Position numbers and translations under genes: made by a program. Shown here one piece after another: positions 26,954 through 28,096 of a DNA stretch of 64,000 nt. This DNA comes from an uncultured Pelagibacteraceae bacterium (lineage in GTDB: Bacteria; Pseudomonadota; Alphaproteobacteria; Pelagibacterales; Pelagibacteraceae): assembly GCA_902613545.1 (NCBI GenBank), contig CACMHW010000001.1, positions 1-64,000 on the forward strand, in the 5' to 3' direction. The notes below the pieces were generated by a model. The model saw nothing but the letters and a program-made list of their open reading frames with translations, did no database searches and was not told where the DNA came from. Each line of letters starts with the position of its first letter. The stretch's first letter is position 1.

Positions 26954-27538
26954 ATGCCTGAAACACCATTTATGCCGAAAGCAACTGCTGTTTGGCTAGT
27001 TGAAAACACAACACTTACTTTTAAGCAAATCGCTGAATTCTGCAACTTACATGAGTTAGAAATAAAAGGTATAGCTGATGGAGATGTTGCGAAAGGCATT
27101 AAAGCTTACAATCCAATATTAGCAGGTCAACTTTCTAGAGAAGAAATAGAAATTTGCTCAAAAGATCCAAATAAAAAATTAAGTTTACTTAAAAAATTAG
27201 ATGAAGTCGAAGTTAAAGAGAGAAAAAAACCAAAATATACTCCATTATCAAAAAGACAAGATAGACCAGACGCAATATTATGGTTATGTAAAAATGCCTC
27301 GGAACTTACTGACGGTCAAATCTCAAAACTAGTTGGCAGTACTAAAGGTACGGTATCTTTGATCAGAAAAAGAAGTTATTGGAATTTTTCTAATTTAAAA
27401 CCTAGAGACCCCGTAATTCTTGCTTTATGCACGCAAGAGGCTTTTCAAAAAAGTTTGGATAAAGCGAAAAGAAGAGTTGAAAGAGAGCGAAAAGCTAAAA
27501 TTAGAGAGGAAAAAAAGGCTCAAGCAGCTTCAGCCTAG
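26954..27538 (+). CDS. DUF1013 / TrcR-like cell cycle regulator
   Basis: FMPKATAVWLVENTTLTFKQIAEFCNLHELEIKGIADGDVAKGIKAYNPILAGQLSREEI. Confidence 0.85.
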   Translation: MPETPFMPKATAVWLVENTTLTFKQIAEFCNLHELEIKGIADGDVAKGIKAYNPILAGQLSREEIEICSKDPNKKLSLLKKLDEVEVKERKKPKYTPLSKRQDRPDAILWLCKNASELTDGQISKLVGSTKGTVSLIRKRSYWNFSNLKPRDPVILALCTQEAFQKSLDKAKRRVERERKAKIREEKKAQAASA

Positions 27539-27589
27539 ACAAACTAGGCGTCTAATGATAACAACCATAAAAATTAACCGGAGGTTTTT

Positions 27590-27784
27590 ATTAAAATAGA
27601 CGTAAAAGATAATAACGTAGAACAAGCTATTAGAGTGCTAAAAAGAAAACTTCAAAAAGAGGGTTTCTTCAAAGTTATGAAAATGAAAAGCACTTATGAA
27701 AAGCCATCTGAACGAAAAAAAAGAGTTCAAACTGAAAATCTTAAAAGAATTAAAAAGCTCCAAAAACTAAGAAATAGATATTAA
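27590..27784 (+). CDS. rpsU: 30S ribosomal protein S21, apparent ATT start (not in supplied ORF track)
   Basis: Translation (I/M)KIDVKDNNVEQAIRVLKRKLQKEGFFKVMKMKSTYEKPSERKKRVQTENLKRIKKLQKLRNRY*; GGAGG SD 5 nt upstream of ATT. Confidence 0.9.
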   Translation: MKIDVKDNNVEQAIRVLKRKLQKEGFFKVMKMKSTYEKPSERKKRVQTENLKRIKKLQKLRNRY

Positions 27785-27810
27785 CTTGAATTAAAATGAA
27801 GGGATTAGAA

Positions 27811-28014
27811 ATGCCATCAGGTAAAGTAAAGTGGTTTAACGCCAAAAAAGGCTATGGGTTTATAACAGATGATGAAACTAAAAAAGATATTTTTCTACAT
27901 GTATCAGCACTTGAAGAGTCAAAACTTAGAGTGCTTAAAGAAGAGCAAACAATTGTTTACGATATAAAAGAAGAAAAAGATAAACTCCAAGCAATTAATA
28001 TTAAAAAGAAATAA
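27811..28014 (+). CDS. Cold shock domain protein
   Basis: MPSGKVKWFNAKKGYGFITDDETKKDIFLHVSALE. Confidence 0.95.
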   Translation: MPSGKVKWFNAKKGYGFITDDETKKDIFLHVSALEESKLRVLKEEQTIVYDIKEEKDKLQAINIKKK

Positions 28015-28019
28015 TTTAA

Positions 28020-28096
<77 letters not shown>

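Follow-up and report, generated by a model that had tools for sequence, protein, structure and literature searches.

A conserved non-AUG start codon behind a strong Shine-Dalgarno sequence in the rpsU gene of Pelagibacteraceae, a possible translation switch

The rpsU Locus and Its Neighbors

The window considered here, namely the whole stretch of 64,000 nucleotides that was analyzed, is part of contig 1 of a 0.99 Mb genome of Pelagibacteraceae (SAR11). It contains rpsU, the gene for ribosomal protein bS21, with a TrcR-family regulator upstream and a cold-shock protein downstream (table 1). The rpsU frame matches PF01165 of Pfam (3.2e-15, 56 bits with a cut-off of 27) as well as TIGR00030 S21p of NCBIfam, an equivalog model (3.7e-15, 55.5 bits with a cut-off of 28.95), nearly the whole protein being covered in both cases. 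Its translation, (I)KIDVKDNNVEQAIRVLKRK..., is ended by the TAA at 27782-27784, while the letters of 27580-27604 are GGAGG TTTTT ATT AAA ATA GAC GTA AAA. An in-frame TAA lies five codons 5' of the ATT, and the interval between the two holds no canonical start. These features bear out a sequence-only reading of the locus, which had described a full-length S21 with an ATT start, GGAGG placed 5 nt before this codon and no ATG, GTG, or TTG at the expected N-terminus. It had also stated that the ORF track misses the gene, and indeed the ORF list contains just a fragment of 49 residues starting from the GTG at 27635. The same reading referred to the first in-frame ATG, which is codon 30; the earliest canonical start within the gene is the GTG just mentioned (codon 16).

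Table 1. Coordinates of rpsU, its Putative Expression Signals, and Adjacent Genes in the Window
Feature	Position	Strand	Description	Basis
TrcR-family cell-cycle regulator	26954..27538	+	Upstream gene, ATG start	PF06242, 4.5e-56
Probable -35 element	27536..27541	+	TAGACA, overlapping the TrcR stop codon TAG	Conserved spacing
Probable extended -10 element	27556..27564	+	TGATAACAA (TGn + TAACAA)	Column conservation
Shine-Dalgarno sequence	27580..27584	+	GGAGG, 5 nt 5' of the start codon	Pairing with 16S tail, conserved with AUH
rpsU initiation codon	27590..27592	+	ATT (AUU)	AUH in 136/139 relatives, closed frame upstream
rpsU, ribosomal protein bS21	27590..27784	+	64 residues plus stop	PF01165 and TIGR00030 matches
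Cold-shock protein (CSD)	27796..28014	+	Downstream gene	PF00313, 6.1e-23
tRNA-Met(CAT)	28020..28096	+		ARAGORN

Except for the overlap with the probable -35 element, the TrcR gene is a neighbor lying outside the rpsU element. The tRNA-Met further downstream has sequence features (CGCGGGG...CTCATAA) from which we take it to be the initiator tRNA. Its anticodon stem, TCAGG CTCATAA CCTGA, carries an A-U pair at the first of the three G-C pairs that are present in the anticodon stem of the E. coli initiator tRNA.

Position and Conservation of the Start Codon

We collected 139 distinct rpsU loci of Pelagibacteraceae from at least 11 genera, comprising 131 loci that were examined first and further loci added thereafter, with the omission of two of the three hits in the contaminated assembly G210 and of a frameshifted locus in G309. 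The start codon is ATT in 130 of these loci, ATA in three, ATC in three, and ATG in the remaining three, whereas in another family of their order (hereafter the sister family) it is ATA in 22/22 loci, behind AAGGAGG. Given this turnover among AUU, AUA, and AUC (collectively AUH), the conserved property is that the codon is not AUG. The frame is closed by a stop 1-18 codons 5' of the AUH codon in 131/131 distinct loci; a TTG or GTG lies between this stop and the AUH codon in 11 of the 131, nearly always a TTG that overlaps the Shine-Dalgarno (SD) sequence itself. Across the same 131 relatives, codons 2-20 vary mostly synonymously, which indicates that the N-terminus is translated. The closed frame upstream, the N-terminus conserved as protein and the ATG found in three relatives together place the start at 27590, and the AUU in this position is well supported as the real initiation codon of rpsU.

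The presence of ATG in close relatives had been put forward as an observation that would speak against the AUU start. AUU, AUA, or AUC occur in 136/139 loci and the three exceptions form one clade devoid of SD; having their ATG at the same codon, they confirm the start position and do not refute AUU. Since both the start position and the codon class are maintained in relatives, neither chance nor sequencing error explains the ATT. An error of sequencing or assembly in the window's genome is in fact refuted by independent assemblies of many genera, from single cells as well as metagenomes, in which the codon belongs to the same class, and we regard it as exceedingly improbable.

Alternatively, translation might begin at an in-frame codon farther upstream or at a GTG or ATG within the gene, or ribosomes might enter the frame by frameshift or reinitiation after a short upstream ORF or TrcR. 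ATT, ATA, or ATC would likewise be expected at an Ile codon inside a protein, and a short out-of-frame ORF with its ATG at 27555 does overlap the start region of rpsU. Yet the frame of this ORF differs from one relative to another and the probable -10 element contains its ATG, while the in-frame stop upstream in 131/131 loci, the conservation of codons 2-16 as protein and the ATG located exactly at the AUH site in three relatives all argue against such alternatives, which we consider very unlikely.

Two assemblies deserve a separate mention. In L410 (G309:C1:103714-104470) the rpsU frame is broken by a frameshift and a stop, probably an assembly error, and G210, reported to be 8% contaminated, has three differing S21 hits (L401-L403).

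The Ribosome-Binding Site and Its Upstream Region

All the rpsU genes of Pelagibacteraceae that start with AUH have a strong SD, with a median dG of pairing with the 16S tail of -11.0 and a range from -17.1 to -9.1 kcal/mol; this tail, GGATTACCTCCTTTC, is intact in the window's genome. The gene stands out when compared with the rest of the same genome, for which we sampled 269 kb in comparison with another genus, obtaining 110 non-overlapping conserved genes. Among these, rpsU is the sole convincing case of a conserved N-terminus without a canonical start. None of the 103 sampled genes with an assigned start has GGAGG within 20 nt of it, and their SD pairing has a median near zero and a strongest value of -8.5, versus -10.2 for rpsU. 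The SD of rpsU is therefore exceptionally strong for its genome, which is SD-poor and in which most mRNAs have an AUG start and little SD pairing. Outside the set of 103, one gene (C1 near 247 kb) combines GAGGAGG with ATG. The scan of the 269 kb had returned 21 AUH candidates, of which all but rpsU were discarded as antisense or RNA-gene shadow frames, or as overlaps with neighboring genes.

Upstream of the SD, the combination of TAGACA or TTGACA with TGnTA at a distance of exactly 17 bp is found in 111/139 distinct loci, and TGnTA by itself in 138/139, with its T, G, T, and A columns being invariant in an alignment of 18 sequences. From the conserved spacing of these probable -35 and -10 elements, the transcript is predicted to carry a leader of about 20 nt ahead of the start codon. 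A generic scan for promoter consensus found nothing and did not score the TAGACA / TGnTA element, so that the promoter assignment rests on conservation. RNAalifold found no conserved structure in 18 leaders (-0.77 kcal/mol, no meaningful covariation). We also considered, and rejected, a GCCTAG/CTAGGC hairpin in the leader of the window, which is not conserved, and a coupling of rpsU via the short upstream ORF, the frame of which is not conserved.

A Clade with ATG and without SD

The three genomes in which rpsU starts with ATG, at exactly the AUH position (G226, G235, and G270), form one clade (support 96/98) within a genus in which the other 15 sampled members have ATT (14) or ATC (1); the tree, in which the outgroup rows are very long, is unreliable in its deeper branches. 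Their loci have lost the SD, with pairing to the 16S tail of -1.5 to 0 kcal/mol versus -9.1 or stronger in AUH loci, but the TAGACA / TGnTA element is retained, which restricts the change to the ribosome-binding site. The 16S tail is intact in G270, whereas a pattern search did not find it in G226 and G235. In Pelagibacteraceae, therefore, rpsU occurs in two alternative states, SD with AUH or AUG without SD, its start codon and SD being coupled, even if the passage from one to the other is a single evolutionary event in three genomes and does not form a statistical series.

Starts of rpsU and infC among Alphaproteobacteria

To place these results in context, rpsU starts were surveyed in 89 other Alphaproteobacteria, nearly all of different families, which were chosen for intact contigs and hence not at random; assigned by rule from the alignment rather than singly, the starts are GTG in 42, ATG in 20, TTG in 10, ATC in 6, ATA in 5, CTG in 4, and ATT in 2. 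The AUH and CUG starts (17/89) are spread over about 16 families, although for L168, counted under ATC, an upstream ATG is probable. As a control, rpsO starts with ATG in 30/30 Alphaproteobacteria as compared with 20/89 for rpsU (Fisher p about 4e-15), and rpsU itself has ATG in 23/24 Pseudomonadota outside the class (Fisher p about 3e-11), both tests treating genomes as independent. rpsU thus avoids AUG across Alphaproteobacteria. Because ATC, ATA, and CTG starts occur in many families of the class (L112-L201), public annotations of rpsU are likely to be often truncated or missing. Among these other members of the class, genes with AUH/CUG starts and those with different starts show no significant difference in SD strength (p = 0.13 and 0.82), and we rejected the idea that a stronger SD generally offsets a weak start in the class.

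The gene classically known for such starts is infC, encoding IF3, which has AUU in E. coli and ATC in Streptomyces; AUH start codons are IF3-sensitive. In many Alphaproteobacteria infC starts with AUA, and in the sister family (L202, L205-L224) with AUA or AUC behind AAGGAG. Most Pelagibacteraceae checked (L225-L230) have instead an infC starting with GTG directly after a stop codon and without SD, whence SAR11 seem to have lost the classic AUH start of infC and no IF3 feedback loop is visible.

These data bear on a reading in which the level of IF3 is what is sensed: the AUU would make rpsU an IF3-repressed gene, like infC of E. coli or sigR of Streptomyces, without bS21 being the signal. AUH and GTC starts are known targets of IF3 (PMC5472188), and infC shares with rpsU the signature of SD plus AUH in the sister family and in many Alphaproteobacteria. 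The infC of Pelagibacteraceae, however, has GTG without SD wherever it could be read, while rpsU keeps its AUU, so that the starts of the two genes are not tied; moreover, a sensor of IF3 alone leaves unexplained the joint loss of strong SD and AUU in the ATG clade. We therefore hold this reading to be unlikely.

A Possible SD-Dependent Switch for bS21 Supply

How could a poor start codon serve a gene whose product is a ribosomal protein? bS21 sits beside the anti-SD on the platform of the 30S subunit, and a start that cannot work alone, set behind a strong SD, suggests that translation of rpsU is meant to be SD-dependent. In the scheme that we propose, the initiator fMet-tRNA would read the AUU of rpsU, and a strong SD together with a deliberately poor AUH start would constitute a conserved, two-part switch. 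The AUU would remove SD-independent initiation, such that rpsU would be translated only in proportion to the pairing between SD and anti-SD, and would render initiation sensitive to codon-checking by IF3. If 30S subunits without bS21 are more efficient than complete subunits at initiating on rpsU mRNA, then bS21 would be made when it is short. We infer that the AUU lowers rpsU translation in SAR11 and makes it conditional on SD; IF3 would be the checker of this codon, the IF3 sensitivity of an AUH start in rpsU being likely, while ribosomes deficient in bS21 would be the sensor by analogy with Flavobacterium johnsoniae. Taken as a whole, a real AUU start acting with the SD as a translation switch, most likely in feedback on bS21 supply, is the account toward which we lean, if only slightly. 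Against regulation stand the non-significant link between SD strength and start weakness in the class and the derivation of the ATG switch from one event.

Indeed, the weak start could be a fixed expression setting rather than a regulated one: for a gene that is small and highly transcribed, little protein would be made from each mRNA, with the SD offsetting the codon. SD and start weakness alternate as compensation would have it, and the commonest rpsU start of the class is GTG, a mildly weak codon. Conversely, AUH has been kept in no fewer than 11 genera, and in the sister family as well, even if one substitution yields AUG, and a severe cut would be an odd setting for a protein needed at about one copy per ribosome. 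Such static tuning consequently seems doubtful to us.

The preferred switch on bS21 supply may be compared with several known systems. The infC of E. coli is also a translation gene with an AUH start behind an SD and an expected check by IF3, but its product is IF3 itself, forming a direct loop, whereas the product in SAR11 is bS21. The parallel with infC drawn in the sequence-only reading is apt, while IF3-dependent autoregulation is not directly transferable, IF3 not being the product of rpsU and infC of Pelagibacteraceae itself having GTG without SD where its start could be read. In Streptomyces, the noncanonical GTC start of sigR is repressed by IF3 and, like that of SAR11 rpsU, is conserved and was overlooked by annotation; it differs in belonging to a sigma factor, in having a codon with two mismatches and in the experimental testing of its regulation, which for SAR11 is deduced (PMC5472188). 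The closest case is Flavobacterium johnsoniae, in which bS21 keeps the anti-SD sequestered and ribosomes deficient in this protein favor rpsU mRNA: the gene is the same, with an exceptional SD in an SD-scarce genome, but the available part of that report describes an extended SD below -13 kcal/mol and mentions no noncanonical start (PMC9976891). The SD of SAR11 is of 5-8 bp and coupled to AUH, its median energy of -11.0 having been computed differently from the -13 kcal/mol of that paper (PMC9976891). Conserved non-AUG starts are described also for chloroplast genes, which are organellar (PMC9845219).

Our finding would extend two known kinds of control, by noncanonical starts and by rpsU autoregulation. 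To our knowledge, sequestration of the anti-SD by bS21 has been shown only in Bacteroidia and is not known in SAR11, and controlled noncanonical start codons are known in bacteria from very few genes; a search limited to open-access literature found no description of a non-AUG rpsU. A broader proposal is tentative and, in our view, has somewhat less than even prospects: that Alphaproteobacteria, with SAR11 as the extreme, possess an undescribed start-codon switch in rpsU, whereby AUH would impose SD dependence and ribosomes lacking bS21 would make bS21 selectively. If true, this would be a second solution to bS21 feedback, besides the extended SD of Bacteroidota. No other heterotrophic bacteria of the surface ocean are as abundant as SAR11, and in this group a noncanonical start is fixed in an essential ribosomal gene, with weak rpsU starts throughout the class; standard gene callers drop or shorten rpsU when it starts with AUH. 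The clade with AUG and no SD offers a natural comparison by which the relation of bS21 supply to start codon and SD can be tested directly, and laboratory Alphaproteobacteria whose rpsU has an AUH or CUG start can serve the same purpose.

Phages also carry S21 genes, which escape control by the host, and their starts are in keeping with the proposed switch: in 50 distinct loci they are ATG (34) or TTG (10), the other six having no assigned start and none being AUH. Several of the TTG starts (among L445-L526 from IMG/VR, L231, and L232) lie behind a very strong SD, AGGAGGT.
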